In this document: in pieces, positions 26,008-43,892 of the stretch
How positions within the stretch are numbered: the stretch's first letter is position 1
Layout of the letters: each line of letters opens with the position of its first letter
Made by a program: the position numbers and the translations under genes
Notes under the pieces: model-generated
Told to the model about the DNA's origin: nothing
Seen by the model: only the letters and a program-made list of their open reading frames with translations
The model's database searches: none
NCBI RefSeq assembly: GCF_029846175.1
Contig: NZ_JARWAC010000007.1
Coordinates: 372,001-436,000, forward strand
DNA from: Sphaerisporangium sp. TRM90804
GTDB lineage: Bacteria; Actinomycetota; Actinomycetes; Streptosporangiales; Streptosporangiaceae
DNA length: 64,000 bases
Direction of reading: 5' to 3'

Positions 26008-26766
26008 ATGAATCCGGCTCAGGGACGGGGTGACGGCACGACCGCCACCTCGCCCATCAAGCTGGCCTGCCTCGATCTGGCCGGCACCACGATCGGTGAC
26101 ATCGCCATGGTGGAGCGCGCGTTCGCCGAGGCGATCGCCACGCAGGGCATCGTCCCCGGGACCGGCGCGTACGCGCGGGCCATGGTCCACGTACACCGGT
26201 CCCGGGGTCGTCCGAAGATCGAGGTCTTCCGCGGCATCTTCCCCGGCAACGAGGCGCAGGCCCAGGCGGCCAACCTCACCTTCGAGCGCTCCTACGAGGG
26301 CGCCGTCGACAGGGCCGGCCTGTACCCCATGCCGGGAACCGTCGAGGCCCTGGAGAAGCTCCGGGGCGCCGGGGTGAAGATCTGCCTGATCACCGGCTTC
26401 AGCAGGCCGACTCTCGGCCGCGTGCTCAGCGCCGTCGGCTGGGTCGACAAGGTCGACCTGGCCCTCTCCCCCGAGGACGCCGGCGGCCGCGGCCGCCCCT
26501 GGCCCGACATGGTGCTCACCGCCGTCCTCCGCTTAGGCATCGACGACGTCCGCCAGGTGGCCGTGGCCGGCGACTCCGAGAGCGACATGCTCTGCGGCTC
26601 CCGAGCGGGCGCCTCCATAGTCGCCGGCGTCCTCACCGGCGTCCACAGCCGCGAACGCCTCCTGAGAGGCGGCGCCACCCAGATCATCGACTCCATAGCC
26701 GACCTCCCCGCCCTCCTCCTGGACACCCACCCCACCGACACCCCCACACCCACGCCTTCCCGGTAA
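26008..26766 (+). CDS. HAD-superfamily phosphatase, phosphonatase-like
   Basis: A 252-residue HAD hydrolase. Motif I is LACLDLAGTTIGD, resembling the D-x-A-G-T signature of phosphonoacetaldehyde hydrolase-like proteins. Motif II is CLITGFSR and motif III/IV VAVAGDSESDMLCGSRAGA. A cap domain lies at ~40-110. Likely a cytosolic phosphatase for a small organophosphate. No Schiff-base lysine typical of true phosphonatase is obvious, so C-P cleavage is not claimed. The tail is a threonine/proline run ending 15 bases before tRNA-Ala. Confidence 0.85.
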   Translation: MNPAQGRGDGTTATSPIKLACLDLAGTTIGDIAMVERAFAEAIATQGIVPGTGAYARAMVHVHRSRGRPKIEVFRGIFPGNEAQAQAANLTFERSYEGAVDRAGLYPMPGTVEALEKLRGAGVKICLITGFSRPTLGRVLSAVGWVDKVDLALSPEDAGGRGRPWPDMVLTAVLRLGIDDVRQVAVAGDSESDMLCGSRAGASIVAGVLTGVHSRERLLRGGATQIIDSIADLPALLLDTHPTDTPTPTPSR

Positions 26767-26781: not shown

Positions 26782-26857
26782 GGGGCCTTAGCTCAGTTGG
26801 CAGAGCGCCTGCTTTGCAAGCAGGATGTCAGGAGTTCGAATCTCCTAGGCTCCACCA
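26782..26857 (+). tRNA. tRNA-Ala (anticodon TGC), CCA encoded
   Basis: Acceptor ggggcct pairs with aggctcc (one G-T pair). D arm gctcagttggcagagc, anticodon stem cctgc/gcagg with loop tttgcaa (TGC), T arm aggag-ttcgaat-ctcct. Encoded CCA at 26855-26857. A taagct -10-like element lies ~15 bases upstream. Its 3' half is the attachment site of the downstream relic elements. Confidence 0.97.
26812..26856 (+). repeat. att site A: 3' half of tRNA-Ala
   Basis: 45-bp core from the anticodon loop through the CC of CCA. Repeated exactly at 28062-28106 and with one mismatch at 29949-29993. Functions as attL of the tandem relics. Confidence 0.9.
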
Positions 26858-26866
26858 GCATAAACA

Positions 26867-26897
26867 CACCCCCACTTATGATCGCTTAGTGGGGGTG
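26867..26897. terminator. Hairpin after tRNA-Ala
   Basis: Perfect 10-bp stem cacccccact / agtgggggtg with an 11-base loop. Terminates the tRNA transcript and faces the integrase relic. Confidence 0.75.
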
Positions 26898-26902
26898 GGT
26901 GT

Positions 26903-27090
26903 CTAACTGGGTGCCTGCGTATCCCCGCTCATGGGGAAGATGTCGTCCATGGCTTTCGCCCCTTGCAGCAGGACAGATGAGAGCTGGAAGCGGTAGGCCG
27001 TCTGGTGTTCGCGTAACCGACCAGGCGTGAGATGTACTCCAGTGACACTTCGCGGTCGAGGTGACGTGAAACGCCCACCACGTGATCATC
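26903..27090 (-). pseudogene. Tyrosine recombinase (integrase) C-terminal relic 1
   Basis: Reading leftward from 27090: DDHVVGVSRHLDREVSLEYI, SRLVGYANTR, then a frame change near 26996, then TAYRFQLSSVLLQGAKAMDD IFPM and a TAG at 26903. This is the end of an actinobacterial phage integrase, with the VYRxQL tyrosine region recast as AYRFQL, so the nucleophile tyrosine is kept but in another frame. The catalytic R-H-R part is missing. Position, with its 3' end against the tRNA att site, is standard for integrative elements. Confidence 0.72.
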
Positions 27091-27256
27091 GGTGTTTGTG
27101 AATTTCAGCTCACCGGTGAGAGGAGCGAGGGGCAGACGGTCGGGATGCTGGATCTAACCAACGCCTGACGCGGCCACCATCCCCAGCGCCGTCGCGTTGC
27201 TTCCTGGACTCCTCGGTGGCGCCTACGACCCCGTAGCACATACTCGGGCGCGGCGC

Positions 27257-27487
27257 TCAGGATTCGCCGGCGTCATTCCTTCGCGCGATGAAGACGGAGC
27301 CGACGGCCAAACCCAGGGCCAAACCCAGAGCCAAACCCAGGGCGGCACCGAGAGCGATGTTGTCCAAGAAAATCCCGACCGTGGTGCCGAAGACGGCGCC
27401 GAAGAGAGAGCCAAATGCGAGCCAGACCCCGAGATTTCCCGAGATCCCGAGACCTTCGGCGCCCGAGGGCATGTTGTTGCTCGTCAT
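27257..27487 (-). CDS. Small glycine-zipper membrane protein on element 1
   Basis: A 76-residue protein starting MTSNNMPSGAEGLGISGNLG with two hydrophobic segments. The second is a glycine-zipper run (GAALGLALGLALGLAVG) encoded by three tandem 12-bp units at 27305-27340. GGAGA lies 8 bases before ATG 27487. Glycine zippers pack helices tightly and occur in small membrane and pore-forming proteins; no specific function is assignable. The stretches 27091-27256 and 27488-27947 show no convincing gene; one long minus frame (27273-27845) overlaps this ORF and is doubtful. Confidence 0.6.
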   Translation of the reverse strand: MTSNNMPSGAEGLGISGNLGVWLAFGSLFGAVFGTTVGIFLDNIALGAALGLALGLALGLAVGSVFIARRNDAGES

Positions 27488-27947
27488 CGCATCTCTCCAG
27501 GACGTGGGCGGACTGGCGGGCCCACCACGGCGGATGCGCAACCACCTTCCTCCACAACGTAACACCTGACATCGAAGTTCCCGCCGCCATCGCATGATCT
27601 TTTGTTGTCTTCACAAACTCCAAATGATCTCGCGGTGGCCGTCGCCGTTTGATCCCCAGGAGAGCGGCCAAAGGGGAGTCATTGGGATTCACGAACAACG
27701 GAACACCGCCTCTGACCTGAAGTTCAGCAGGGTCAGAGGATGGTACGGGCGGATGACCGCTGGACCGTGATCCAGCCTCCTCGCTGGTCGATTCTCCTGG
27801 ATGAGCCCACCGAGTCAAGGGCTCCTGCCGGCGTCGCTTCGCCATCAGCTTCGCTGACCTTTGACACGGCGCGCTCGCTCTAGGGATCGGCAGCTACGAG
27901 GCGGAGGGGGAAGACCAGGGGCCTGGTGAACGGATCCGCTCATCTCG

Positions 27948-28106
27948 TGCCCGTCGCGTGCCCGATTGGGCGGGAAACAAGGGGAAACACCGGGGAGCCA
28001 CGGGGAACGCCATCAGCGCGCTGAGCTGTGTCTTCGCAGGGCGAGCAAAATCGGTAGCCGTCTTTGCAAGCAGGATGTCAGGAGTTCGAATCTCCTAGGC
28101 TCCACC
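27948..28106 (+). repeat. Arm repeat ending in att site B (28062-28106)
   Basis: 159 bp ending in the exact 45-bp att core. The preceding ~114 bp align throughout with 29834-29948 (same order of blocks gtgcccgtcgcgtgcccgat, gcgggaaacaagggg, atcag, ctgt, cgcagg), roughly three-quarters identical by eye. The repeats are the right-hand arms of related elements. Confidence 0.8.
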
Positions 28107-28112
28107 CAAAGA

Positions 28113-28148
28113 AAACCCAGGTCAGGGCACACATCCCGACCTGGGTTT
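28113..28148. terminator. Hairpin after att site B
   Basis: Perfect 11-bp stem aaacccaggtc / gacctgggttt with a 14-base loop, the same position relative to att as the hairpin after tRNA-Ala. Confidence 0.75.
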
Positions 28149-28198
28149 CGCGTTTCAACGGGCCTGTTTCGACTCCCGTGCCCGCCCGATGCCTTCGT

Positions 28199-28437
28199 GA
28201 GCTGGTCTCTAGCGAGGGCGTCGAGCTTGCTCGCCACCTCACGCTGACGCTCATGCGAGCCGTGCTGATAGACCATCGCCGCCCGGGTGCTGGAGTGCCC
28301 CATCCGGTCCATCAACTCTCGAATGGACGCCCCTGCGTTCGCGGCGAGCGTGTTGCCTGTGTGTCGAAGGTCGTGAAAGTGGATCTTCGGTAGTCCGGCC
28401 TTGGCGAGCGCCTTGGCTTGGTTTCGTTCGCGTGACC
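28199..28437 (-). pseudogene. Tyrosine recombinase (integrase) C-terminal relic 2
   Basis: Minus-strand reading: RERNQAKALAKAGLPKIHFH, DLRHTGNTLAANAGASIREL, MDRMGHSSTRAAMVYQHGSH ERQREVASKLDALARDQL. It keeps box II H-x-L-R-H and the MGHSS motif with a Tyr nucleophile context (MVYQHG). Upstream coding is lost, and downstream the frame runs on into the att site without its own stop. A different family from relic 1, so the two elements had different integrases. 28438-28669 holds nothing else but a small hairpin at 28603-28621. Confidence 0.8.
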
Positions 28438-28669
28438 TGACCGCGGTTGTTCGTCGGCTGTGACCGCGGGCATGGTTGGGCGAAGTCGTTGTTCGTGCGA
28501 TTCGACCGCACTCATGGACCGCATCGCCGGCCTCCAGGGCGGCGCACCTCTACGAGCTCGCCGACCTCCGGGCGGCCGCCCGTTATCAAAGGTGCCTGCG
28601 GAGCCTCAGGCTTGTTGAGGCAAGTACCGCCGGATACTCGAGAAGTACCGCGTGAGTCCGTGGCCGGTC

Positions 28670-29398
28670 CTACTCAGCGTCCTGTGCCTCGATCAGGTCG
28701 AGGTCGCGGACGCAGAAGCCGTGGTGCTCGAAGGTCTCGTCGAGCACCGTGCCGAGGCACCGCCGCACCGAGCGGCCCCGGGCGTACGGCGGCCAGATAT
28801 CGTCGTCGGGCACCGGCGCTCGCCCGGCGAGCTGCCCAGCGGTGACCCCGTCGAGCCAGGCCTCAAGCTCGGAGGCCTGTGCCTCACGCACGCTCACGAT
28901 CTCGTCGAGGGACGGATCGAGCGAGAGGTCAAGCCCGTGCGCTCCACGGTAGGGCTCAACGGTCGTCCCGATGCCCATCGGCGTGAACAGCTCCGTCGAG
29001 CCCAGGCAGCAACGGCGGAACCACGAGTCGTGGACGAAGACCAGGTGGCGCATCGTCTGCACAGCCGACCACTCGTCATTCACGCTGCGGCGCTCGATGC
29101 CGGGCGTACGACGGATTCGCTCGATCGTGGCGGCCCAGCCGGTATGGAGCTGACGCGCTGCCTCGCGCAGATCGGCAGGGTCCTCGGAGCGGATCAGCAG
29201 CCGCACCGGATTACGCCGGTCGAGCTCTGCCTCGACGTACTCGGTGACCTCGACCCCGTTCACCACGAGGTTGGTGATAAGCCCGTCGATCACGGCGTCC
29301 TGCATGACGACGCCGATCAGGCGTGCCCCGGTCAGATCGCACTCGCGGAACTCTGCACCGTGCAGGTCCTCGTCGACATATCGTTTCATGCTCCGCAT
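28670..29398 (-). CDS. DinB-family protein with N-terminal pentapeptide-like repeat
   Basis: A 242-residue protein from ATG 29398 (MRSMKRYVDEDLHGAEFREC). Residues ~10-50 hold a short pentapeptide-repeat-like stretch (AEFRECDLTGARLIGVVMQD). The rest is a DinB-like four-helix bundle with WSAVQTMRHLVFVHDSWFRR, whose histidines fit the usual metal triad, and a late HHGFCVRDL. DinB-fold enzymes often act as thiol-dependent transferases or hydrolases. The only full-length gene retained in element 2. An ATG at 29389 is an alternative start. Confidence 0.8.
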   Translation of the reverse strand: MRSMKRYVDEDLHGAEFRECDLTGARLIGVVMQDAVIDGLITNLVVNGVEVTEYVEAELDRRNPVRLLIRSEDPADLREAARQLHTGWAATIERIRRTPGIERRSVNDEWSAVQTMRHLVFVHDSWFRRCCLGSTELFTPMGIGTTVEPYRGAHGLDLSLDPSLDEIVSVREAQASELEAWLDGVTAGQLAGRAPVPDDDIWPPYARGRSVRRCLGTVLDETFEHHGFCVRDLDLIEAQDAE

Positions 29399-29531
29399 GG
29401 TAGGGCCGAGCACTGACAAACCAGCCCCCCTGTCCCCGCGACCTCCACCCCATTGGTGCGGTCGGCTCTCCCGAACATTGATCATGGTTCCAGCCCTCAA
29501 GTGTGCGGTCAGAACTCACGAACAAATGCGG

Positions 29532-29717
29532 TCACTTCTCACAAACGAAACCAGCGGCTACTCCCGACGCTGCACCTCCCACCGCGCTCACAATGCCAGC
29601 GATCGTCGTGATAAGCGCTGTCGCATCTAAGCCCGCATTCGAGCCGGAATGGGACGTGACCACGTTGCCCAGTAGTAACGCAGCAGCGACGAAGAGGCCC
29701 ACAGAAAGGACTCCCAT
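29532..29717 (-). CDS. Small Gly/Ala-rich membrane protein on element 2
   Basis: A 61-residue protein (MGVLSVGLFVAAALLLGNVV, then ~20 polar residues, then GIVSAVGGAASGVAAGFVCEK). It has two membrane segments, the second a glycine-rich zipper. No strong ribosome site, though TGCGAG lies just before ATG 29717. It parallels the 76-residue protein of element 1 in size, topology and location on the minus strand, though the sequences are not obviously alike. Confidence 0.55.
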   Translation of the reverse strand: MGVLSVGLFVAAALLLGNVVTSHSGSNAGLDATALITTIAGIVSAVGGAASGVAAGFVCEK

Positions 29718-29833
29718 CTCGCAGCGGCGAATGGCGGTGTCCGGATGCTCATGCTGTGAACCGTACGACGGCGCGTGGGCCCCAGCTAGAGCCCCACTCT
29801 GATCGGTTGACCGATCGGAGTGAGGGTACCGCC

Positions 29834-29993
29834 GTGCCCGTCGCGTGCCCGATGGGGCGGGGAACAAGGGGGAACAGCGGAGAGTCGCGGGGCCTGCGAT
29901 CAGTGCTGTCAGCTGCGTCGTCGCAGGTAGGACAAGATCGGCGTACGTCTTTGCAAGCAGGATGTCACGAGTTCGAATCTCCTAGGCTCCACC
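29834..29993 (+). repeat. Arm repeat ending in att site C (29949-29993)
   Basis: Counterpart of 27948-28106. The att core differs from the tRNA copy at one base (29968) and, like the tRNA, continues as ccagc, so it is probably the original chromosomal right boundary. Confidence 0.8.
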
Positions 29994-30002
29994 AGCCGAA
30001 AC

Positions 30003-30026
30003 GCCGCTTCCGGATGGGGAAGCGGC
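30003..30026. terminator. Hairpin after att site C
   Basis: gccgcttc / gaagcggc stem of 8 bp with an 8-base loop. Third hairpin in the same position after an att copy. Confidence 0.65.
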
Positions 30027-30101
30027 AGTCGTGCCATCAGCTCGCGGAGATCGGCACCGGCTGAAGCCGGCAGTTGATTGTGGCCGTTAGCATCCTGTGG
30101 C

Positions 30102-30824
30102 ATGCCGTTTACCTTGATCCATGCCGTTGTCGCGGTGCCGTTACGCCGCATTCTGCCGGCGGCGCCGCTGGCTGCCGGGGCGATGACCCCCGACCTTCCC
30201 TACTTCGTCCCCAGCGGGATCACTATCCCCGACGGGCCCTGGTTTCAGCCGCTGATGGATGCCGGATACACCCACAAGGTGCAGGTGGACGCGCTTGTCG
30301 CCGATGTGGCGCTGGCGCTGGTGCTGGCGGGAGTGATGACGGTGTGCGCTGCCCCGGCCCGCGCTCTGCTGCCCCAGATGCTGGCCCGGCGGATGGAGCG
30401 TCGCGGCCCGGCGTGGGCGGCACGCTGGGCGTGGTGGCCGGTGGCTGCCGTCGTCGGGGTCGCCACCCATCTGGTGTGGGATGGCCTGAATCACTGGATG
30501 GCGGACGCCGGGGACCCGGCGCTGCTGAAGGCCGAGGGGGTGCATCTGGTGGGTTCGCTGATCGCTCTGGCGGCGGTCGGCTGGGCCTGCTGGTGGCTGT
30601 GGCGCAGGCCGCTGAGCGAGCCGGTGCCCCAGCCGGGCCTAGGGGTGCGCCTGGGGCTGCTGGCGGCGATGGGGCTGGTGGCAGCCGGACTGGTCACGAT
30701 GAAGGGCACTTGGGCTTGGACGGTGCCGCGGTCACTGGTGACGTCGACGATCGCCGCGATCGTGCTGGTGCTGCTGGCCTATGCCGCCTTCCGTCGCCTG
30801 GCCATCTCTCGGGCGGCGACCTGA
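30102..30824 (+). CDS. DUF4184 family membrane protein
   Basis: A 240-residue integral membrane protein beginning MPFTLIHAVVAVPLRRILPA with the family hallmarks: an early histidine, AAGAMTPDLPYFVP, and VVGVATHLVWDGLNHW, resembling the metal-binding pattern of membrane phosphohydrolase-like proteins. About six hydrophobic segments. ATG 30102 lies just after a TTAGCAT -10-like element at ~30087-30093, suggesting a short leader. Function unknown. Confidence 0.85.
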   Translation: MPFTLIHAVVAVPLRRILPAAPLAAGAMTPDLPYFVPSGITIPDGPWFQPLMDAGYTHKVQVDALVADVALALVLAGVMTVCAAPARALLPQMLARRMERRGPAWAARWAWWPVAAVVGVATHLVWDGLNHWMADAGDPALLKAEGVHLVGSLIALAAVGWACWWLWRRPLSEPVPQPGLGVRLGLLAAMGLVAAGLVTMKGTWAWTVPRSLVTSTIAAIVLVLLAYAAFRRLAISRAAT

Positions 30825-31374
30825 CACCGTCGGGTTAGGCCGAACAGACCTTCCCGCGCCGATGAACCGCTGCGGGCGCTGCTATGACCATGAACTGAAT
30901 CTGGGAGCCGCCCCTGGTTCAAGTCGTCGGCCGCCCGCTGATCGAACGCGTCGCCGGCTACCTTGACATCCTCACCGCCCACGGCGTCGGCGGTGAGGAT
31001 GATCCGGTCCTCAGACTCGGGCTGGATCATCTACGAAACGACCATCCGATCGTCGCCGCACCCCACTCCAGCTTCGACGATGCCCTGTGAAGGGGCCGCC
31101 AACTCGAGCCTGATCAGCGGCGAGCGTGTTGCCCGTGTGCCGGGGAAGTTCGAACCCTTGAGTCCATCTCTTTCAGCGCGTTCACCCACTTGACCTCACG
31201 CCGGAAGTCGCCGCTCCGCAGGATGTCGCCACGGACGCCGAAAGCGCGATTTCGTGTCGAAGTGGCCGCGTCGCACACCGAGCGCTCCCCCAGACCGAGC
31301 CGGGGCCGGGGCACCCACCACGAGCGGTTCGCTCCGCGAGACCACAGGCCCGGCCGGGCACTATGTTCCCCTGT
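30825..31374. other. 550-base region of gene fragments
   Basis: No intact gene. 30899-31090 on the plus strand is a 63-codon startless tail (WEPPLVQVVGRPLIERVAGY, ending SSFDDAL) that looks like the C-terminus of a lost protein. 31112-31146 on the minus strand reads LPRHTGNTLAADQA, matching the box II region (LRHTGNTLAANAG) of integrase relic 2, so a third recombinase scrap lies outside the att-bounded interval. TATGTT at 31362 is a probable -10 for the kinase gene. Confidence 0.5.
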
Positions 31375-32955
31375 GTGACCGCGCACTCCCCCCGCGTCCT
31401 CGTTGGGCGCTATCGGCTCACCTCCTCGCTCGGCAAAGGAGGAATGGGCACCGTCTGGCGAGCCGTCGACGAACTCCTCCAGCAGGAGGTCGCGGTCAAG
31501 GAGGTACGGCTGCCGCCCGACCTGGACGATGCCACCCGCGCCGAGTTGTTCGAGCGGACCTTGCGCGAGGCACGGGCGGCCGCCAGGCTGCGCGCGCACC
31601 CGTCGATCGTCACCGTGCACGACGTCGTCGACGACGGCCGGCCCTGGATCATCATGGAACTGGTCCAAGGCCGGTCACTCGACCAGATGATCCGCGAACA
31701 CGGCCCGCTGCCCCCGCGGCAGGTCGCCGACATCGGAATTCGCCTGCTCGACGCCCTCGCCGCCGCGCACGCCGCGGGCATTCTGCATCGGGACGTCAAG
31801 CCGGCCAACATCCTGATAACGGGCGAGGGCCGCGTCGTGCTCACCGACTTCGGCATCGCCACCCTCGCGGGCGAGGCGGCCCTCACGCAGACCGGGCTGG
31901 TCTCCGGTTCACCTGGGTTCATGGCTCCCGAGCGACTCAAGGGGGAGGATGACCGCCCCGAGTCTGATCTGTGGTCGCTCGGCGCCACGCTTTACGCGGC
32001 GGTGGAGGGCCGTTCCCCGTACGCGCGAGAACGTCAGACGGCCGTGCTCGCCGCCGTGCTTCTCGACCTGCCCCATCCGATGATGTTGGCCGGGCCCCTC
32101 GCACCTGTCCTGGCCGGTCTGCTCGAAAAGGATCCCGCGCGACGTCACAGCGCGGGCCAGGCCGCCGCACAACTGCGATCGATCACGGCTCACGGCCCGT
32201 CGAACGCCGGCGCGCCTCGGATGGCCCCACCACCGCACGGCAACCCGCCCCTGGCGGCTCCACCGGTCCACGGCGCCCTACCTGCGCAGCCTGCCAGGCC
32301 GGCCCGCAAGAAGCCGGTGGTTCTGGGGGCGGTCCTGGCGTTGACAGTGGCTCTCGTCACAGGAGCGGTGTTCGCGACCCGCGATGTCTGGCAGGGCGCA
32401 TTGGCCGCGCCGCGGAAGAGTGGTGACGGGACCACGAGAAGCGTCACTGCGGCGCCGAGCGAGTCGGGGACGGGCGTGCCCTCCCCGACCGAGGTGCGGG
32501 AAGCTGCGTACACCAAGGACCCGGAAGCCTGCGAGCTGGTGAACCTCCGGCAGGCGGGGCAGTTCCTCACCGGCCCGGCGAAGCAGCGGTTCATGACCAA
32601 AGGGATGTGCATGTGGCAGAGAGAGGATATCGGTGCTTTCTTCCATGTGAACGTCATCCGCTCGCCGACGACGGAGAACGCCCGCATGGTATTCGCGTCG
32701 CTACGCGAGAACATGCAGGAGGAACCGAGAAGGAACCCTGGGACCACCCTTCGGAAGGGCCCTGACGTGGGCGATGAAGCCTTCAGTTACGCGAAAGGCG
32801 AGGTCATCGCGGACATCAGAATTCATCGGACGCAGGTGCTGTTCCGGCAGGACAACGTGAACGTCATCGTGTACTTCACGCTCCGCAGCCCCGGCTACCG
32901 CAAAGCTGACCTGGTGGCCGCGCTGGTCGAGAAGGGCCTGGCGGCGTATCGCTAG
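31375..32955 (+). CDS. Serine/threonine protein kinase, PknB-like, membrane-anchored
   Basis: A ~526-residue Hanks kinase. Glycine loop LGKGGMGTVW, catalytic K in VAVKEV, HRDVKPANIL, DFGIATL and SPGFMAPERL are all intact, so it is active in principle. A Pro/Ala linker leads to one transmembrane helix (VVLGAVLALTVALVTGAVFA) and a ~190-residue extracellular domain with two cysteines (DPEACELV, GMCMWQ), no PASTA repeats, resembling DUF3558-like domains. GTG 31375 is preferred: TATGTT at 31362-31367 is a -10 at the distance expected for leaderless translation. ATG 31363 would add four residues but lies inside that hexamer. Confidence 0.9.
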   Translation: MTAHSPRVLVGRYRLTSSLGKGGMGTVWRAVDELLQQEVAVKEVRLPPDLDDATRAELFERTLREARAAARLRAHPSIVTVHDVVDDGRPWIIMELVQGRSLDQMIREHGPLPPRQVADIGIRLLDALAAAHAAGILHRDVKPANILITGEGRVVLTDFGIATLAGEAALTQTGLVSGSPGFMAPERLKGEDDRPESDLWSLGATLYAAVEGRSPYARERQTAVLAAVLLDLPHPMMLAGPLAPVLAGLLEKDPARRHSAGQAAAQLRSITAHGPSNAGAPRMAPPPHGNPPLAAPPVHGALPAQPARPARKKPVVLGAVLALTVALVTGAVFATRDVWQGALAAPRKSGDGTTRSVTAAPSESGTGVPSPTEVREAAYTKDPEACELVNLRQAGQFLTGPAKQRFMTKGMCMWQREDIGAFFHVNVIRSPTTENARMVFASLRENMQEEPRRNPGTTLRKGPDVGDEAFSYAKGEVIADIRIHRTQVLFRQDNVNVIVYFTLRSPGYRKADLVAALVEKGLAAYR

Positions 32956-33185
32956 GGGTTCGCCCGCCGCGCTCAGGTTATCCGGCGCCGGTCGAGCCGT
33001 GTTGGTCAGACGTCGAAGCGGACTTCACCACGTCGCCGTCACGCATGACGTGGTCCGCTCGCCGAGCGGCAGCCGTGAGGTCTCCATCAAGGAACGTCAG
33101 GCCGACGACGGCTGAAAACACTGTGATGTGGATTGGCTCGGTGGGGCTGGCGTGGTTTGGTTGCGGGTAGGTAGGTGGTGGTTCG

Positions 33186-33209
33186 GTCCCCCTGTCAGGT
33201 GAGGGGGAC
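33186..33209 (+). promoter_or_regulatory. Hairpin sequestering the ribosome site of the DyP operon
   Basis: gtccccct / agggggac, 8-bp perfect stem with an 8-base loop. The right arm contains the GGGGG ribosome site for ATG 33214, so folding would block initiation. 32956-33185 otherwise shows nothing. Confidence 0.5.
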
Positions 33210-33213
33210 TGGG

Positions 33214-33747
33214 ATGGAGATCACACCTCGGGCGGTAGTCATTCCCAAGGAGACGGGGCATCTGGAGCAGGGGAAGTATGGTCCTGTGTTTCCCCGGAGC
33301 CCGGCGTGTCATGGGTTCACGATCGTCGCGAAGGTCAAGTCCGGTCGGGGCGAGGCGATCCGTGATCACGGGCGCGCGCTGGCCGAGGCGTTGGAAGCCG
33401 ATCCGCATCTGCTCGCGCCGCTCAAGCTGCACTATCTGCGCTGGGTGCTGTTCGACGACGACACGCGGTTCATGTACCAGGGGATCTTCGACACCGACTT
33501 CGACAAGTACACCGAAGACGCCGTCGACCTCTTCAGCAGGTCGGGGGTGAGTACGGCATTCGAGAACCTTGAGGGATTTCCCGAGGACTGGAGGACCAAC
33601 CCCGAGGCGTTCGTCCGGTTCGTTCGTGCGCATCACTGCCCGAGCTTCGTCGAGTACGGGGAGTACCCGTACGTCACCGCCGACGAGATCAAGAAGGCTC
33701 TGCGGATCAAGAGCGCGCTGTCGGAGATGCTCGACCAGCTGCAGTGA
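33214..33747 (+). CDS. DyP operon protein 1, unassigned; possible ferredoxin-like barrel
   Basis: A 177-residue soluble protein starting MEITPRAVVIPKETGHLEQG. FTIVAKVKSGRGEAIRDHGR followed by a helix and LRWVLFDDDTRFMYQGIFDT reads like one ferredoxin-like half-barrel, the same fold class as DyP peroxidases and antibiotic monooxygenases. The C-terminus is helical (ADEIKKALRIKSALSEML). No signal peptide. First of three same-strand genes before the peroxidase. No function recognised. Confidence 0.75.
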   Translation: MEITPRAVVIPKETGHLEQGKYGPVFPRSPACHGFTIVAKVKSGRGEAIRDHGRALAEALEADPHLLAPLKLHYLRWVLFDDDTRFMYQGIFDTDFDKYTEDAVDLFSRSGVSTAFENLEGFPEDWRTNPEAFVRFVRAHHCPSFVEYGEYPYVTADEIKKALRIKSALSEMLDQLQ

Positions 33748-33773
33748 CGCTCGCACGGTGCACGGGGGATGAG

Positions 33774-34790
33774 ATGAGCGAGTTCAGGACCGCGCGTACG
33801 TACAACCAGCACCACACGCCACGCCAGTACACACCTGGCCGGCGGCGGATGAGCATCTACGTCGCGTGGAGCTACCCGGCCGAGGCGGGCCGGAACACGG
33901 CCGAGCTGGACGACCGGTTCTCCACGATGACCGAGGTTCGCCGCGTCACCTGGCCGGCGTATGAGGATCCGCGATGGTCGGATCCGCTGCGGTTCCAGCA
34001 GGGCGTCGCGGGCGGGCTGGAGCTGTTCTTCTGGGGCTGGCTGCCCTTCCAGCGGTTCGCCGAGGAGACCACCGGCCACGCGGTGCCCGTGTACCAGCGC
34101 ATCGACCAGGCGGGCTTTCACACCCCGCTGGACGAGCGGGTGCTGGCGGACACCGACACCCTGTTCGTGTGGGGGCTGGACCACATGATCACCGGGCAGG
34201 AGGCCGCGCCCCGGGAGATCGAGGCCGTGCGGGACTTCCTCACCCGGGAAGGAACCTGCCTGGCCCTGGGGCCGCATCACGACGTCGGGGCATCGGACGA
34301 CATGGCCGTACGGGACATGGAGTATCGCCATCACGGCGACGCCCTGGTGCCCCGCCGGCAACGCTTCGGCAGGTACACCAGATCGTTGATGGCCGGTCTC
34401 GCGGTGCCGGTGGAGAACCGGTACGGGCTGCGGCCCGCGGTGCGGGACGGCAACAAGATCGCCCCGCTGTCTGTCGCGAGGGATCTCGACTCCAGGGGAT
34501 GGCTGAAAGGAGTGTCCAGCCTCAACTTCCACCAGCACCTGCCGCACTACGCCGTGACCACCGACGACGCGGACGTCGTCCACGTGCTGGGCAGGCAGCC
34601 GATCGACACGGCCCGGCCGCACCCGTTCACCGAGGCGGGCAACACCGAGTTCAACATGTTCCTGTGGATGCCGCCCAGCGGCGAGCGGGCCGGCGACGTG
34701 ATCCTCGCCGACTCGACGATCTTCAGCGCGTTGTTCGGCGTCGACGAGAACGTGCGCGGCTTCTGGGGCAACCTCGCCTCGGCGAAGTGA
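33774..34790 (+). CDS. DyP operon protein 2, unassigned
   Basis: A 338-residue soluble protein from ATG 33774 (GGGGG 6 bases upstream). It opens MSEFRTARTYNQHHTPRQYT and is rich in Trp, His and Tyr. TDTLFVWGLDHMITGQEAAP followed by EAVRDFLTREGTCLALGPHHDVG has the shape of a class-I glutamine-amidotransferase-like or DUF4350-like Rossmann core (strand, helix, GG-type turn) but lacks an obvious nucleophile cysteine. Several HH pairs (QHH, PHHD, RHHG) could bind metal or heme. 17 bases before the peroxidase ATG. Confidence 0.7.
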   Translation: MSEFRTARTYNQHHTPRQYTPGRRRMSIYVAWSYPAEAGRNTAELDDRFSTMTEVRRVTWPAYEDPRWSDPLRFQQGVAGGLELFFWGWLPFQRFAEETTGHAVPVYQRIDQAGFHTPLDERVLADTDTLFVWGLDHMITGQEAAPREIEAVRDFLTREGTCLALGPHHDVGASDDMAVRDMEYRHHGDALVPRRQRFGRYTRSLMAGLAVPVENRYGLRPAVRDGNKIAPLSVARDLDSRGWLKGVSSLNFHQHLPHYAVTTDDADVVHVLGRQPIDTARPHPFTEAGNTEFNMFLWMPPSGERAGDVILADSTIFSALFGVDENVRGFWGNLASAK

Positions 34791-34807
34791 CACCACAGGG
34801 AGGCGAC

Positions 34808-36235
34808 ATGGTCCCCGAGACAACACAGGCGGCGCTCGAACTCCACGACATCCAGCGCTGCGTGCTCAGCCCTCGGCCGACGCCGTACGCGGCGACGTAC
34901 ATCCTGGTGCGCGTCGACGACCCCGCGCACGGCAGGGAGCTCATGCGCCGCGCGAGCGCGGTGGTGACCTCGGCCGCCGACCCGGTCGGCCCTCCGGGGG
35001 AGACCTGGGTGAGCGTGGCCGTCACCTACCAGGGTCTCAGAGCACTCGGCGTGCCACAGGACTCGCTGGACACCTTCGCCTGGGAGTTCCGCCAAGGGAT
35101 GGCGGCGCGGGCCAAGGCGCTCGGCGACGTCGGCGAGAGCGATCCCGCCAACTGGGAGCCACCGCTCGGCACCTGCGATGTCCACGTGGTACTGGTGGCG
35201 CTCGCCCCCGACAGCGAACGACTCGAAACCGTCCTCGCACGTGCGCGCCCGGCCTTCGACGCGCTCCCCGGCGTGACGGCGATCTGGCGGCAGGACTGCC
35301 ACGCACTGCCCTCCCAGACCGAACCCTTCGGCTACCGCGACGGCATCGGCAACCCGGCGGTCCAGGGCAGCGGCATCCCCGGGTCGAACCGGCTGGAGCC
35401 ACCGCTCAAGGCCGGCGAGTTCGTGCTCGGGTACCCCGACGAGCTCGGCGGTGTCCAGACACCCCTGCCCGAGGTGCTCGGCCGCAACGGCACCTACATG
35501 GTCTTCCGCAAGCTCCACCAACGTGTCGCCGCCTTCCGGCGCTTCCTGAGGGACAACTCCACCGGCCCCGAAGACGAAGAGCTGCTGGCAGCCAAGATCA
35601 TGGGACGCTGGCGCAGCGGCGCGCCCCTGGCCCTGACCCCGCTGCACGACGCCCCCGGCCTCGGCGCCGACCCGGACCGCAACAACACCTTCCTGTACGA
35701 GCGCGACGACCCGGCGGGCTACACCACGCCCGGCGGCTGCCACATCCGGCGGGGCAATCCCCGCGACGCTTCGGTGGCCGGATCCCCCAGGCTGCACCGC
35801 ATGATCAGACGCGGCACCGCGTACGGCCCGCAGCTGCCCGAAGGCGTTCTGGAGGACGACGGCGAGGACCGCGGGCTCATGTTCGCCTTCATCGGCGCGC
35901 ACCTCGGCCGGCAGTTCGAGTTCGTCCAGTCCGAGTGGATGAACAGCGGCGTCTTCTTCGGCGGCGGCGACGAGCGGGATCCCGTCATCGGCTTCGACCA
36001 GGGCTGTCGCGACTTCACGATCCCCCGGCGGCCCGTACGCCGGCGCCTGCGCGCTCTGCCCACGTTCGTCGTCACCCGCGGCGGCGAATACTGCTTCGTA
36101 CCCGGACTCCGCGCGCTGCGACGGCTCGGAGAACTCCCCGACCGACCCGTGCCACCTGTGGCCGTCCCGCGCGGCGGGCCGGCAGATCGTTCCTCGTGCG
36201 GCGACGACGGAGCCGGCGATGGGCTGCACTCCTGA
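34808..36235 (+). CDS. Dye-decolorising peroxidase (DyP)
   Basis: A 475-residue heme peroxidase. The distal motif is GYRDGIGNP with catalytic D178, and the proximal heme ligand is H312 in GGCHIRRGNPRD. Length exceeds compact bacterial DyPs (~300) and matches the long class (C/D). FAFIGAHLGRQFEFVQSEWMNSG and RRRLRALPTFVVTRGGEYCFVPG are typical C-terminal blocks. No Tat signal is visible, so it is cytosolic or packaged with partners. Starts with GGGAGG upstream. The two preceding genes are presumably functional partners. Confidence 0.93.
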   Translation: MVPETTQAALELHDIQRCVLSPRPTPYAATYILVRVDDPAHGRELMRRASAVVTSAADPVGPPGETWVSVAVTYQGLRALGVPQDSLDTFAWEFRQGMAARAKALGDVGESDPANWEPPLGTCDVHVVLVALAPDSERLETVLARARPAFDALPGVTAIWRQDCHALPSQTEPFGYRDGIGNPAVQGSGIPGSNRLEPPLKAGEFVLGYPDELGGVQTPLPEVLGRNGTYMVFRKLHQRVAAFRRFLRDNSTGPEDEELLAAKIMGRWRSGAPLALTPLHDAPGLGADPDRNNTFLYERDDPAGYTTPGGCHIRRGNPRDASVAGSPRLHRMIRRGTAYGPQLPEGVLEDDGEDRGLMFAFIGAHLGRQFEFVQSEWMNSGVFFGGGDERDPVIGFDQGCRDFTIPRRPVRRRLRALPTFVVTRGGEYCFVPGLRALRRLGELPDRPVPPVAVPRGGPADRSSCGDDGAGDGLHS

Positions 36236-36342
36236 CTCCCGCGGCGTTCTGATCCGTCTCTGATCTGTGCCGTCTACCGTCGTCCGGCGACAGGCGGTGG
36301 GAGGCCGGGGGGCGGGCGCCTCAGGAGACGAAGGAGCTGGAC

Positions 36343-38013
36343 ATGGACGATTCCATGACGCGCGCTGTGCGCCAGGGACGCGCCGAGGGGCTCGCAGAGG
36401 CGGCCGAGGACGTGGCGGAGGCGTTTCCGCGGCTGTTGCTGGACGCGTTGCTGCGTTCGCCGGGCACCGCCGCCTTTGAGCAGGGGGACAGGGTCGTTTC
36501 TCGGGGCGAGTTGCTTGAGCTCATCGGGCGCATGGCCGTCACCATGCGCGGTGTGGGCATCGGCCCCGGGTGGGGGGTCGCCGTCAGCACCGGCGTCTCG
36601 CCGGAGGGGTTCGCCGCTCAGATGGCCGCGTACGTGCTGGGGTGCCGCGTCGTGGGCGTACGGCCCGGGTACACGCCCGGCCAGCTCGTCCATGTGTTCG
36701 GCGTGGGGGTCGACGCCGTGGTTCTCGACCGGTCGACGGTGACACCGGAGCTGCTGCGCGCCGCCGGATCGGCCGTTGTGCTGTCGCTCGGGCCCGTCCC
36801 CGGGGTGGCGGGGGCGATCGACCTCCTGGCCGATCCCGGCGATGGCCGCTTCCTGGCGGCCGATCCTGGGGACGGTCGCTTCCTGGGCGCGGTCGATTCT
36901 GGCGGCGGTCGTTTTCCGGTCGTCGCGGCGCATCCGGACGACGTGGCTCTGGTGTCCTTCACCAGTGGGAGCACGGGGCGGCCGAAGGGGTGTGCGCTTA
37001 CTTATCGGGCTCTTGCCGCGCACTGGTCTTGCCATCTCACCTGGGCGTCGATCGCGCCCGGCTTCGCCGAGTCCTTTCAGCGGTACATGGTGTTCGGCAC
37101 CCTGTCCAGCATGGTGGTGCTGGACTTTCTGGCGGCGTGTCTGCTGGGCGGCGGGACCGCCGTGATTCCCGAGGAGGACGGCCGGCCGCTGTTCCCGTAC
37201 GCGATCGAGCGGTACCGGATCACCGGCGCCATCGCGGCCGTGCCGCGGTTGTGCGCGATGCTCGACCTGCTTCGCGAGGAGCGGGTCGACGTCGGCAGCC
37301 TGCGCGCGCTGACGGTCTCCGGCTCGCCTGTCAGCCGGCATCGGCTGCGGGAGGCGGTGGACCGGCTGGGTCCCGTCGTCTACGTGGGGTACGGGGCGAC
37401 CGAGGCCGGCGTGATCTCCATGTTCCCGTCCAGCGACCTCGCTCGATTGCCGGACGACGCGCCTGTCCCGGTCGGACGCCCGCATCCCAGCGCCGAGATC
37501 AGCGTGCGCGACGAGAAGGGCCGCCCGGTCGCCGCGGGGCGCACCGGCGAGATCCACGTGCGCAGCCCCTTCGTGATGGCGGGCTACTGGGATCTGCCGG
37601 AGGAGACCGGCGACGTGCTGCGGGACGGCTGGGTGCGCACCCGTGACCTCGGTCACGTCGATGACGCCGGTCTGCTGTACCTGTCCGGACGGACCAGAGA
37701 CGTGATCATGGTCAACGCGATCGTCGTGTACGCCGGCGCCGTCGAACGGGTGCTGGCCGGCCATCCGGACGTGGCCGAAGCGTACGTGGCCGGCGCGCCG
37801 GACGAGCGGACCGGGGAGGCGGCCCACGCGTTCGTCGTCCCGGCCCCCGGCCGCACCCCGGATCCCGCCGCCCTGGCGGAGCTGGTCCGCGCCGATCTCG
37901 GTGAGGGCAGCGTCCCGCGGACGATCAGGACGGTGTCCGCCGTTCCGGTCGCGGCTAGCGGCAAACCGGACAAGCGGGCCCTGCTGGAGCGGTACCTGCC
38001 CCAGACGCTCTGA
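36343..38013 (+). CDS. Acyl-CoA synthetase / AMP-dependent ligase
   Basis: A 556-residue ANL-superfamily enzyme. P-loop VSFTSGSTGRPKGCALT, YGATEAG, the hinge-region TRDLGHVDDAGLLYLSGRTRD and the catalytic lysine in PVAASGKPDKRALLE are all present. It activates a carboxylic acid as acyl-AMP and transfers it to CoA or a carrier; the acid is unknown. Residues ~163-193 hold three decapeptide repeats just before the P-loop, unusual for the family. ATG 36343 has GGAG 7 bases upstream. First gene of a ligase-oxidase-P450 group. Confidence 0.9.
   Translation: MDDSMTRAVRQGRAEGLAEAAEDVAEAFPRLLLDALLRSPGTAAFEQGDRVVSRGELLELIGRMAVTMRGVGIGPGWGVAVSTGVSPEGFAAQMAAYVLGCRVVGVRPGYTPGQLVHVFGVGVDAVVLDRSTVTPELLRAAGSAVVLSLGPVPGVAGAIDLLADPGDGRFLAADPGDGRFLGAVDSGGGRFPVVAAHPDDVALVSFTSGSTGRPKGCALTYRALAAHWSCHLTWASIAPGFAESFQRYMVFGTLSSMVVLDFLAACLLGGGTAVIPEEDGRPLFPYAIERYRITGAIAAVPRLCAMLDLLREERVDVGSLRALTVSGSPVSRHRLREAVDRLGPVVYVGYGATEAGVISMFPSSDLARLPDDAPVPVGRPHPSAEISVRDEKGRPVAAGRTGEIHVRSPFVMAGYWDLPEETGDVLRDGWVRTRDLGHVDDAGLLYLSGRTRDVIMVNAIVVYAGAVERVLAGHPDVAEAYVAGAPDERTGEAAHAFVVPAPGRTPDPAALAELVRADLGEGSVPRTIRTVSAVPVAASGKPDKRALLERYLPQTL
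36829..36921. repeat. Three 30-bp coding repeats in the ligase
   Basis: Units at 36829-36858, 36859-36888 and 36892-36921 encode ADPGDGRFLA, ADPGDGRFLG and VDSGGGRFPV. The first two are nearly identical in DNA. Confidence 0.75.
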
Positions 38014-38146
38014 TCGATCTCTGAGAATCCCGGGCCAAGACTGGTGAAACTTCAATCACCGCAGGGCGGGAGGCGCCAGTGCCCGACAGCTCGGTCCGCG
38101 GGGCCCGCCGATCGGCGGGCACTCACCACAGCCTCCCGGCCTCGGG

Positions 38147-39193
38147 GTGACGGCCGTGCTACGGACCATCGGGGAGTTCGAGGCGGCGGCCCGGGACCGG
38201 TTGGACCCCGCGCACTACGACTACTTCGCCGGCGGGACGGGCGAGGAGATCACCTTGCGGGCCAACGAGGCGGCGTTCGCCCGGCTCGCGCTGCTGCCGC
38301 GCGTGCTGCGTGGTGCGGGGAGCCCGCGGATCGGGGTCACCCTGCTCGGCAGCCCCGTGGCCATGCCGGTGCTGGTGGCGCCGACCGCGTTCCACCGGCT
38401 GGCCGATCCGGAGGGCGAGCCGGCCACGGCGCGCGCGGCGGCCGGCGCGGGCACCATCATGATCGTGAGCATGGCGGCGACCGTGGCCGTCGAGGACGTC
38501 GCGACCGCCGCGCCCGGCGCCACCCTGTGGTTCCAGCTCTACGTCCAGCCGGACATGGCCTTCACCGAGGCGATCGTCCGCCGCGCCGAGGCCGCCGGAT
38601 GCACGGCGCTGGTCGTCACCGTGGACTCCCCCGCCCGGGGACACCGCGACCGGGACCTGCGCAACGGCTTCGTCGACCTGCCGGAGGGCATGCGCTGCGA
38701 CAACCTGCGCGACGGCGACCTGGTGCGGCCGATCGTCATGTCGCCGGAGATCTCGTGGGAGCACGTCGACGCGCTGAGGCGGATGACGAGGCTGCCGATC
38801 GTGCTCAAGGGCGTCACGCATCCGGCCGACGCGCGCCTCGCGCTGGAGCACGGCGTGTCGGCGCTGTACGTCTCGAACCACGGCGGACGGCAGCTCGACA
38901 CCGTCCCGGCCACCGTCCAGCTGCTGCCGGAGATCGTGGCCGCCGTCGCCGGGGCCGTGCCGGTGCTGGTGGACGGAGGGATCCGGCGCGGCCCCGACGT
39001 GGTGAAGGCGATGGCGCTGGGCGCGTCCGCGGTCGCGGTCGGACGTCCGGTGATCTGGGGCCTGGCGACCGGCGGCGAGCGCGGCGTGGCCCGCGTGCTC
39101 GCGCTGCTCCGCGAGGACGTCGAGCAAACGCTCACCCTGTGCGGCGTCGCCTCGGTGGACGACCTCGGGCCAGAGCTGGTGCGGCCGTGCTGA
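38147..39193 (+). CDS. FMN-dependent alpha-hydroxy-acid oxidase/dehydrogenase
   Basis: A 348-residue TIM-barrel flavoprotein of the lactate/glycolate/hydroxymandelate oxidase family. FMN and substrate residues: APTAFHRLADPEGE, WFQLYVQ, VVTVDSPARGHRDRDLRNGF, LKGV and the catalytic histidine in YVSNHGGRQLD, then DGGIRRGPDVVKA and VGRPVIWGL. It oxidises an L-2-hydroxy acid to the 2-oxo acid. A relation to hydroxymandelate oxidases of glycopeptide clusters is possible, but no 4-hydroxyphenylglycine genes are near. GTG start 38147; the end overlaps the P450 by 7 bases. Confidence 0.9.
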   Translation: MTAVLRTIGEFEAAARDRLDPAHYDYFAGGTGEEITLRANEAAFARLALLPRVLRGAGSPRIGVTLLGSPVAMPVLVAPTAFHRLADPEGEPATARAAAGAGTIMIVSMAATVAVEDVATAAPGATLWFQLYVQPDMAFTEAIVRRAEAAGCTALVVTVDSPARGHRDRDLRNGFVDLPEGMRCDNLRDGDLVRPIVMSPEISWEHVDALRRMTRLPIVLKGVTHPADARLALEHGVSALYVSNHGGRQLDTVPATVQLLPEIVAAVAGAVPVLVDGGIRRGPDVVKAMALGASAVAVGRPVIWGLATGGERGVARVLALLREDVEQTLTLCGVASVDDLGPELVRPC

Positions 39194-40542
39194 CGGCGGC
39201 GGCGGTGGCGGTGGCCGTGGCCGCACTCCTCATCGGCTTCCCCCGGTGGCTGCCCGGCCGGGTCGTCGCGCTGCGCGGGTGGGTGTTCACGAGGATCAAC
39301 GGTGACGAGAGCATTCCGGTCCCCGGCGAGCTGATCGGCGTCGACCGGTTCCGGGAGGTCTACTCCCACCCGGCGGCCTCCGGCCGCAGCAGGGGCGCCG
39401 CCCTGTCCGACCTGTTCTGGTACTGGCTGTCGCCGGGGCCCGAGATGCACCAGGAGCACCTGGAGGCCGGGGAGCGGTACGACGCCGTCGCCCTCGTCAC
39501 CCGCCGCATCATGTCCGTGCCGCGGACACGGGCGGAGGAGCTCACCCGCCGCTGCGTCACCCGGGCGCTGCGGGACAGGCGGGGGATGGTCCGGCTGCGG
39601 GACATGCTGATGCCGGTGTGGGCAGAGTTCTCCTACGAGCTCGTGTTCGGCGAGCCGTGCCCGCCGCACGCGCGGGATCTGATCGTCGGCAACGCGGACG
39701 ACGTCGTCACCACCCTGAAGTTCTGCGGCCTGCGGCACATGGACCGGCGCGAGCGGCTGACCGCGTACCTGGTCGAGTCGCTGCCCCGGGTGCGGCACGA
39801 GCTCCCGGCGGGCCTGACGGCCCGGGAGCGGGCGCTCTATCTCCAGGGCGCCTTCTTCAACACCGCCGTCGTGCAGATGTCGGAGGCCGTGGCGCACGTG
39901 CTGATGGCACTCGCCCGGCACCCGGACGTACAGGACAGGGCGCGTGACGGCGACGACCGCTACCTGGACCAGGTCGTCTCGGAGACGCTGCGGCTCTACC
40001 CGCTCTTCGGCATCGCGCACCGCATCACCACCGGCGACATCCCTCTCGGAGACGGGGGGACGATCCCGGCCGGCTCGGTGCTGTGCTTCGACTACCCCGC
40101 GTTCCACCGGGCGGGCTTCCCCGACCCCGAGCGTTTCGACCCCGGACGCTTCGCACCCGGCCACGCCCCGAGACGGGAGCTCAACCACATTCCGTTCGGC
40201 ATGCCGGCGAACCGTCCCTGCCCGGCGGCGCGGCTCGCGCCGCTCGCCATGCGGGTCGCGGTGCGTGAGACCCTCCGCGCGTGCCGGCTCGACTCCACCG
40301 CCTCGCACACCCGGTCCCTGCCCAACCGGGGGCCGTGCCTCCTCACCCCCCTGGGAGCGGCGCGGCGCGGGCCGGTACGGCGTCTGACGTTGCTGTACAT
40401 GTGGTTCAGGGACGGCTGGGAGGACCTCTGGCGCAGCCTCGTGCAGCTCGTTCTCGGGACGTACATGGTGTGGGACGCGCACCGGTCGCGGCCGTGCGAG
40501 CGCCACTTCTCCGGCGGGCTCACCCCCAGGGCCGGTGAGTGA
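39187..40542 (+). CDS. Cytochrome P450, N-terminally membrane-anchored
   Basis: A 451-residue P450. GTG 39187 begins VLTAAAVAVAVAALLIGFPRW, an N-terminal membrane helix that is rare in bacteria, whose P450s are usually soluble. K-helix ETLRLYP, the PERFDPGRF segment and the heme-binding cysteine in FGMPANRPCPAARLAPL are visible. The I-helix acid/alcohol pair (usually A-G-x-D/E-T) is replaced by FFNTAVVQMSEA, so oxygen activation may be atypical. A ~45-residue tail (MWFRDGWEDLWRSLVQLVLG) adds an amphipathic helix. Likely hydroxylates a hydrophobic product of the ligase/oxidase pair. Confidence 0.85.
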   Translation: MLTAAAVAVAVAALLIGFPRWLPGRVVALRGWVFTRINGDESIPVPGELIGVDRFREVYSHPAASGRSRGAALSDLFWYWLSPGPEMHQEHLEAGERYDAVALVTRRIMSVPRTRAEELTRRCVTRALRDRRGMVRLRDMLMPVWAEFSYELVFGEPCPPHARDLIVGNADDVVTTLKFCGLRHMDRRERLTAYLVESLPRVRHELPAGLTARERALYLQGAFFNTAVVQMSEAVAHVLMALARHPDVQDRARDGDDRYLDQVVSETLRLYPLFGIAHRITTGDIPLGDGGTIPAGSVLCFDYPAFHRAGFPDPERFDPGRFAPGHAPRRELNHIPFGMPANRPCPAARLAPLAMRVAVRETLRACRLDSTASHTRSLPNRGPCLLTPLGAARRGPVRRLTLLYMWFRDGWEDLWRSLVQLVLGTYMVWDAHRSRPCERHFSGGLTPRAGE

Positions 40543-40686
40543 CCAGGGGTCGGCCGACACGAGAGGTTGCGCGAGAAACCATTCAAATTTCATCTAGTTT
40601 CAGGTGTCGGCTGGTGAATGCGCAGCATGCCCCGGCGAAGTTGCTGAAAGCTGGATATTTCCTGATATGGGTGCCACGGTGGGCGG
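40543..40686 (+). promoter_or_regulatory. AT-rich control region before two-component genes
   Basis: AT-rich stretch 40570-40600 with repeats ttcaaatttcat and agtttcagg (TTTCA at 10-base spacing) and an inverted pair ccgacac (40553) / gtgtcgg (40604). TGATAT near 40671 is a possible -10. Such spaced direct repeats are the usual sites of OmpR-type regulators, suggesting autoregulation. Confidence 0.4.
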
Positions 40687-41376
40687 GTGGCACGGACACC
40701 GGGGACGCCCGGATCGCGCTCCCGTCGCCTGCTGCTCGTGGAGGACGACCGCGATCTGGGGGACATGCTGGCCGACGTGTTCGTCGGCGAGGGATACACG
40801 GTCGATCTGGCGCTGGAGGGCCAGCGCGGCCTGCACCTGGGGCTGAGCCGCGACTACGACGTGATGATCATCGATCGCGGGCTCCCCGTGGTCGACGGTC
40901 TCGATCTGCTGAGAAGGCTGCGCCGCCGGGCGGTCACCGTGCCGGTGCTGATGCTCACCGCGTTCGGCGCCGTCACCGACCGGGTCACCGGGCTCGACGC
41001 GGGCGCCGAGGACTACCTGGTCAAGCCGTTCGACCTCGACGAACTGCTGGCCAGGGTGCGCGCCCTGCACCGCAGAAACCTGGACCAGGCCGCGCTGCTG
41101 CCGGTCGGCGTCGGCTGGCTCGACTCCGCGTCCTGCACCGTGAGACTGTCGTCCGGCGGACAGGTGACGCTGTCCGGCCAGGAGAGCCGGCTGCTCCGCA
41201 CGCTGGCGATCCGCCCCAAGCAGGTGCACACGCGCCCCCTGCTGTTGCAGCGGGTGTTCGACGGCGCCACGACCGAGTCGATCGTGGACACCTACGTCTA
41301 CTACCTGCGCGGCAAGCTGGGGTCCTGCGTCGTGCACACCGTTCGTGGCGTGGGGTACCGCCTGGGTGAGCTGTGA
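40687..41376 (+). CDS. OmpR/PhoB-family response regulator
   Basis: A 229-residue regulator. Receiver domain: acidic pair in LLVEDDRDLG, phospho-acceptor Asp in DVMIIDRGLPV, T in LMLTAFG and K in DYLVKPFDLDELLARV. The C-terminal winged helix contains LSGQESRLLRTLAIRPKQVHTRPLLLQRVF and ends VDTYVYYLRGKLG...GVGYRLGEL. GTG start 40687. Overlaps the kinase start by 4 bases. It probably controls the preceding ligase-oxidase-P450 genes and itself. Confidence 0.92.
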   Translation: MARTPGTPGSRSRRLLLVEDDRDLGDMLADVFVGEGYTVDLALEGQRGLHLGLSRDYDVMIIDRGLPVVDGLDLLRRLRRRAVTVPVLMLTAFGAVTDRVTGLDAGAEDYLVKPFDLDELLARVRALHRRNLDQAALLPVGVGWLDSASCTVRLSSGGQVTLSGQESRLLRTLAIRPKQVHTRPLLLQRVFDGATTESIVDTYVYYLRGKLGSCVVHTVRGVGYRLGEL

Positions 41377-43824: not shown

Positions 43825-43892
43825 CCGGCTCCGGCGGCCCGTCTCGCCATGGCCGTCACGCCAGAATCCGAAGCTCTTCCGGGAGGTGAGAT

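Follow-up and report, generated by a model that had tools for sequence, protein, structure and literature searches.

Integrative elements and their remnants have been described in tandem in several bacteria. In Streptococcus, arrays of integrative and conjugative elements (ICEs) and integrative and mobilizable elements (IMEs) contain cis-mobilizable elements (CIMEs), which are described as decayed stretches of 1.2-13 kb bounded by attachment (att) sites, with cargo but no recombination or transfer genes, standing in tandem with whole elements (PMC7563491). Among the actinomycete integrative and conjugative elements (AICEs), several families with different integrases and a conserved remnant have been found at one tRNA-Arg gene of rhizosphere Streptomyces (PMC9513070), and the Frankia elements Fean5518 and Fean5534 lie in tandem at one tRNA and excise both singly and jointly (PMC3218068). 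The element pACPL carries the arm repeat GTCACCCAGTTAGT(T/C)AC(C/T)CAG, which was likened there to the integrase-bound sites of pSAM2 (PMC3364876). Here we analyze a stretch of 64,000 nucleotides from Sphaerisporangium sp. TRM90804 (the window; contig NZ_JARWAC010000007.1, positions 372,001 to 436,000), in which relics of integrative elements, named E1 and E2 from the left, follow a tRNA-Ala(TGC) gene.

Like the streptococcal CIMEs, these relics are att-bounded and decayed and have neither recombination nor transfer genes; unlike the CIMEs described there, at least E2 is derived from an AICE, the target is a tRNA-Ala gene, one relic combines ends of two integrase families and one relic occurs in two genera (PMC7563491). 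The Streptomyces tRNA-Arg remnant was described from very close strains, whereas the remnant studied here is common to distinct species and occupies different array positions (PMC9513070). The Frankia pair consists of whole elements, the present array of relics (PMC3218068). AICE accretion, tandem AICEs and CIMEs are already known; the hybrid ends and the cross-genus spread are new. For this family (Streptosporangiaceae), a limited literature search, mostly of titles and abstract openings, returned no report of relics with hybrid ends at tRNA-Ala, and the matches listed for tRNA-Ala were all unrelated by title.

Cores and relics at the tRNA-Ala(TGC) gene

The region is probably a tandem array of at least three decayed integrative elements, the first of which (E1, 1.25 kb between cores A and B) would be a deletion hybrid, with E1 and the neighboring E2 (1.89 kb between cores B and C) being CIME-like. 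The tRNA-Ala(TGC) gene at its head is the sole whole copy found in its own genome. Its 3' half is recovered at E < 1e-13 in three places only, namely cores A, B and C; the next two matches in this genome are short pieces (26 and 21 bases), the shorter one stemming from the tRNA 5' half. An earlier note on this DNA had placed three cores with 0-1 mismatches in 45 bases at these positions, each followed by a hairpin, and all of this was borne out (predicted folds of -20.5, -22.6 and -23.6 kcal/mol behind A, B and C, as raw energies with no shuffle baseline). Direct copies of the tRNA 3' end thus delimit successive elements, and similar arrays are present in many relatives. Cores, hairpins and integrase scraps together support the tandem accretion of decayed elements that the note had proposed. 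The scraps behind A and B do belong to different integrase families, here called T3 and T1, whose whole members are 24-28% identical, and the arms in front of B and C are indeed homologous (161 nt including the core, 83% identical with gaps excluded; 79.8% over 109 nt for the arm alone).

The note's count of two relics was too low, as a T2-type left end and a scrap of a third integrase follow core C. Core C and this left end (29949-30037) are 82-87% identical to sequences of two congeners (G006 and G001), with 80% over 41 bp for the left end alone in G006. Within the integrase scrap, 31117-31241 is 80% identical to the DNA of the G006 T2 integrase (133 alignment columns) and one piece reaches 69% over 26 amino acids; a piece of 34 amino acids had no Pfam match. 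The idea that the sequence behind core C is the original chromosome flank was ruled out by this left end and the integrase scrap behind it. The matching part of the integrase starts 247 bp after the core in G006 and 1123 bp after it in the window. The additional 876 bp correspond approximately to the stretch that bears a DUF4184 gene, so that this gene, which separates the T2 left end from the T2 scrap, is probably an insertion. No continuation of the DNA to the right of core C was found in the congeners within stretches of up to ~18 kb behind the tRNA, and strong matches of 30078-50000 (E up to 1e-30) sit elsewhere in congener genomes, as judged from the best 27 candidates per genome.

E2 joins a T1 integrase scrap, 74% identical to residues 310-396 of the integrase of a relative (G025), to a T1-type right arm, a pairing of integrase and arm types that also marks G025, G005 and G022 in their long T1 intervals. 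The T1 origin of its left end is assigned because of the integrase scrap. The earlier note had taken the two relics for related elements whose integrases were swapped: the arm homology stands, but a swap is not the best reading, since E2 pairs T1 with T1 and E1 alone mixes families. The cargo open reading frame (ORF) of E2 is 91% identical to G003:C53. The DinB-type cargo DNA (28670-29416) is 80% identical to a plasmid stretch of Tsukamurella tyrosinosolvens, a likeness that suggests wide transfer.

Whole elements at this tRNA are found in relatives. The tRNA query matched in 56 of 60 of them, many with further partial copies close downstream, and four integrase families (T1-T4) use the gene in the genome family searched. 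The T1 element of G025, with 11.1 kb between its cores, encodes Phage_integrase, RepSA (E 3e-104) and FtsK domains and thereby has the integrase, the replication gene and the FtsK/TraB-type translocase that define an AICE; G005 has integrase-, RepSA- and FtsK-like genes in ~11 kb between cores (Pfam was run on G025 only). From this gene set, only C-terminal scraps of integrases were found in the 1.25 and 1.89 kb of the window relics. In G252 and G184, a whole T3 integrase directly follows the tRNA, and in G274 one follows a core at a place with no intact tRNA; a Rep-like ORF was seen by eye near the integrase in G252 and G274. T2 and T4 elements are typed by integrase and motif only. Among named records, Nonomuraea gerenzanensis (Streptosporangiaceae) gave an array-like match, in which a T4-type left end follows the tRNA-Ala(TGC), and a second core with a T3-type left end behind it lies 4.0 kb further along. 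An array of six cores including the tRNA, five of them within ~7 kb, was found in G097 (L161, L176). In a 1.0-kb T4/T2 interval of G032 (L045, 2623-3281), two small ORFs resemble, by eye, a BrnT/BrnA-type toxin-antitoxin pair.

The same HAD-type hydrolase gene precedes the tRNA in all ten congeners searched (G001-G010), and the sequence behind the tRNA mostly differs among them. An element end was called after the tRNA in eight of the ten, while G001 and G008 have T2-like and T4-like hairpins, recognized by eye, with no called motif; a clean empty site was recognized in none of the ten. Beyond the tRNA, Rfam returned two sub-threshold matches only.

Flank motifs and the hybrid ends of E1

Each integrase type has a left-end motif that, by eye, recurs in the right arm: CGTGCCCGTCGCGTGCCCGAT for T1, GTGCCATTAACGTGCCATTAG for T2, GTGACTAACTGAGTGAC for T3 and GTACAGCAGCRAAGTACAGCAACGGC for T4. 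These motifs are candidate binding sites of the integrases. In reverse complement, the T3 motif is similar to the arm repeat of pACPL, an element that sits at a tRNA-Pro gene, whereas the T3 elements considered here sit at tRNA-Ala(TGC) (PMC3364876). Typing of left ends by similarity clustering was too coarse, lumping 45 of 77 sites, and the motifs were used instead. The att sites were scored against all four motifs in flanks of 170-190 bp, with thresholds set on 3379 segments of 160 bp picked at random from the same loci. Integrases adjoining the left ends cluster by motif class. Identity within classes is 74-87% for T1 (n=5), 77-99% for T2 (n=9) and 70-79% for T3 (n=4) and falls to 21-55% between classes, T4 being represented by one protein; the protein numbers behind these figures follow from the pair counts, and the automatically picked ORF set also includes several that do not look integrase-like (some labelled '-', one T4 and one T1).

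For att-bounded stretches, the pairing of motifs offers a way to tell a whole element from a recombinant of two by sequence alone. Both ends could be called in 39 of 77 att-att intervals (one of the 77 being of unknown length). At 5 kb or more, 17 of 18 called intervals have cognate ends, a number reached in 0 of 10000 label shuffles; below 5 kb, 7 of 21 are cognate, which is chance level (3276 of 10000 shuffles reach it). The contrast is significant (Fisher p 1.6e-4); the 5-kb cut-off was picked after part of the data had been seen, and cut-offs of 3, 4, 6 and 8 kb also give p < 0.02. In loci fetched after the motifs had been fixed, 8/8 long and 2/8 short intervals are cognate (p 0.007; one of eight, G097, overlaps an earlier locus).

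The ends of E1 come from two element families, and the stretch has no working integrase. A T3 motif was called at its left end and none at its right end, where a T1 arm stands; long T3 intervals have the T3 motif called at both ends. By its sequence, E1 is a hybrid, T3 at its left end and T1 in its right arm. The integrase scrap behind core A resembles, by eye and with weak search matches, whole T3 integrases of relatives at their C-terminus; its open piece gave no Pfam match. The glycine-rich product of 74 amino acids encoded in the captured block is probably a membrane protein. This segment (27162-27536) is a diverged copy of the tail of a block of roughly 1.8 kb with GntR regulator, ABC transporter and small membrane-protein genes (named by eye), which is ~92-99% identical across several genera and is found in 15 of the 17 loci L128-L144 (not in L140 and L143). 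Another E1 stretch of 75 bp (27582-27656), possibly the end of an insertion sequence, recurs in many family genomes at 83-94% identity. The coordinates of all features are compiled in Table 1.

Table 1. Features of the tRNA-Ala(TGC) region, with positions in the window
Feature	Position	Strand	Basis or remark
HAD-type hydrolase gene	26008..26766	+	Pfam Hydrolase E 3.3e-17; left flank of site
tRNA-Ala(TGC), integration target	26782..26857	+	ARAGORN; Rfam tRNA 26782-26854
att core A, tRNA 3' half	26812..26857	+	sequence match
Hairpin after A, T3-type left end	26864..26900	+	predicted fold
T3 motif GTGTCTAACTGGGTGCC	26899..26915	+	14/17; resembles pSAM2/pACPL arm-type repeats
T3 (pSAM2-like) integrase C-terminus scrap	26906..27160 (upper edge approximate)	-	frames broken
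Captured block with ORF of 74 amino acids (27257-27481)	27162..27536	-	only sub-threshold Pfam matches
145-bp block	27776..27920	+	recurs in several relatives, ~135-260 bp before att
Alpha right arm of E1	27946..28061	+	T1 motif 21/21 at arm start
att core B	28062..28106	+	45/45 bases vs core A
Hairpin after B, T1-type left end	28113..28148	+	predicted fold
T1 integrase C-terminus scrap, 107 codons open	28115..28435	-	Pfam Phage_integrase E 3e-9
E2 cargo ORF, 276 amino acids	28670..29500	-	DinB_2 domain and sub-threshold pentapeptide stretch
Alpha right arm of E2	29833..29948	+	T1 motif 21/21
att core C	29949..29993	+	44/45 bases vs core A
T2-type left end with hairpin	29994..30037	+	T2 motif too decayed to call
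DUF4184 gene	30078..30824	+	Pfam DUF4184 E 4.3e-27
T2 integrase scrap	31050..31242	-	frames broken; best supported 31117-31242

E1 in other species

Stretches of E1 of at least 700 bp are present in at least 5 of 341 family genomes, its own included (best two candidates per genome). The four others are different species, one of another genus, in which E1 is whole or partial and, with gaps excluded, 95-98% identical. In each of them the chromosome flanking the tRNA is less similar: E1 and chromosome are 95.2 and 84.3% identical in G003, 97.6 and 86.4% in G007, 95.6 and 83.0% in G009 and 95.3 and 77.8% in G159, the member of another genus (Fisher p 2e-13 to 3e-30, with gaps uncounted and sites not independent). 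In G009, E1 lies behind another core, at which the shared block starts; in G007, it lies directly behind the tRNA with its right part cut; in G003, the right part alone follows a T1 integrase split in two ORFs and the block ends at a core; in G159, it is complete between two cores. Thus the block edges coincide with a core in two of the five genomes, and the shared block contains no whole integrase. In the G159 locus (L115, oriented ~8683-8935), a dispersed repeat of roughly 180-250 bp was noticed, of which 7 genomes of genus g54 each contain at least about ten copies.

Cross-species occurrence is an indirect sign of transfer, which might have proceeded by site-specific recombination and cis-mobilization. 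E1 could also have spread through homologous recombination of the tRNA region, which would account for a spread without an integrase and fits with the upstream gene being common to the congeners. This route is made unlikely by the lower identity of the chromosome flanking the tRNA (78-86%) than of E1 itself (95-98%), by the cutting of the shared block at the core in G009 (left) and in G003 (right) and by the differing array positions of E1, although homologous recombination still counts against transfer by site-specific recombination.

Origin and possible mobility of the relics

Serial integration into the tRNA 3' end would have involved elements of three or more integrase families (T3, T1 and T2, the T1 element being an AICE), each integration leaving one 45-bp copy of the core, and decay would then have stripped most of their genes. 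A deletion across tandem T3 and T1 neighbors that removed the core between them is the most likely source of E1. Serial integration, decay and such deletions would explain the hybrid ends, and the arrangement needed for the deletion exists in G127, where T3, T1 and T3 elements follow one another downstream of the tRNA. In their present state E1 and E2 resemble CIMEs, which would be mobile solely via the integrase of another element: E1 is bounded by A and B, and in G159 likewise by two cores, E2 by B and C, and both would be deletion-derived and are without recombination or transfer genes. As the CIME model is described (PMC7563491), another element integrates at a flanking core and the two then depart as one composite, the integrase of the newcomer recombining the outer cores. 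Integrase-less scraps such as E1 seem to remain mobile, and this would be their route. In their own genome E1 and E2 may be immobile at present, since no whole type-matched integrase was found there at a matching site: among whole integrases of T1 type the closest one has 57% identity and is located near tRNA-Pro and tRNA-Gly, and T3 matches are partial or distant only.

Several observations weigh against this deletion and mobilization scheme. The excision and movement of E1 are proposals drawn from its sequence. Its copies are incomplete in three genomes (truncated on the right in G007 and G009, on the left in G003), and the complete one in G159 lies at a site without an intact tRNA, where six congeners have no E1. 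The earlier note had named the same content at a non-tRNA site as a finding that would speak against its own reading, and G159 is the single such case. The left edge of this copy keeps 9 further tRNA bases; an excised circle would not carry them, which rules out site-specific insertion at a secondary site, and rearrangement of a tRNA-borne array explains the copy better. On the side of the motifs, long and short intervals do not differ significantly if divided at 2 kb (p 0.15), an 8.3-kb interval in G148 is non-cognate, 38 of the 77 intervals lack a call at one or both ends, and the window E1 and the G159 E1 represent one lineage counted twice. Motifs also occur away from att sites (best random-segment scores for T1-T4 of 21/21, 20/21, 15/17 and 22/26), T4 depends on one integrase, so that T4-like ends lacking an integrase might be of another nature, and the left T1 motif of E2 is too decayed to reach the calling threshold.

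A bolder version, which we hold to be doubtful, makes E1 an autonomous parasite of AICEs, an integrase-less unit of 1.25 kb with two unlike arms, so that integrases from different families could work on it at either end; it would spread across species with the help of any element using the same tRNA, and short elements at such hot spots would in general be scrambled recombinants and not simple remnants. Less probable still is an integrase swap in which a T3 module replaced the T1 module of a functional E1 while the T1 right arm was kept. It would leave the T3 left end and alpha arm that E1 has, and AICEs of one family with different integrases have been reported (PMC9513070), but none of the 18 called intervals of at least 5 kb pairs a T3 left end with a T1 right arm, and with its motif at the left only, a T3 integrase would be without a right arm site. 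Vertical descent of an old E1, slowly evolving under selection on the small ORF or the arms, is highly improbable: the 74-amino-acid product does match over its full length in G003, G007 and G009 at 95-96%, but G159 has a 24-base gap in this ORF, the broken integrase scrap (93.8-97.4%) is about as conserved as the ORF block, and E1 was found in only a handful of the family genomes searched, one of them in another genus with 77.8% identical chromosome there.

The pairing of motifs makes a question testable, namely whether integrase-less scraps at tRNA hot spots travel, and by which integrase. Such travel would allow cargo genes to spread on elements invisible to searches for integrase or transfer genes.

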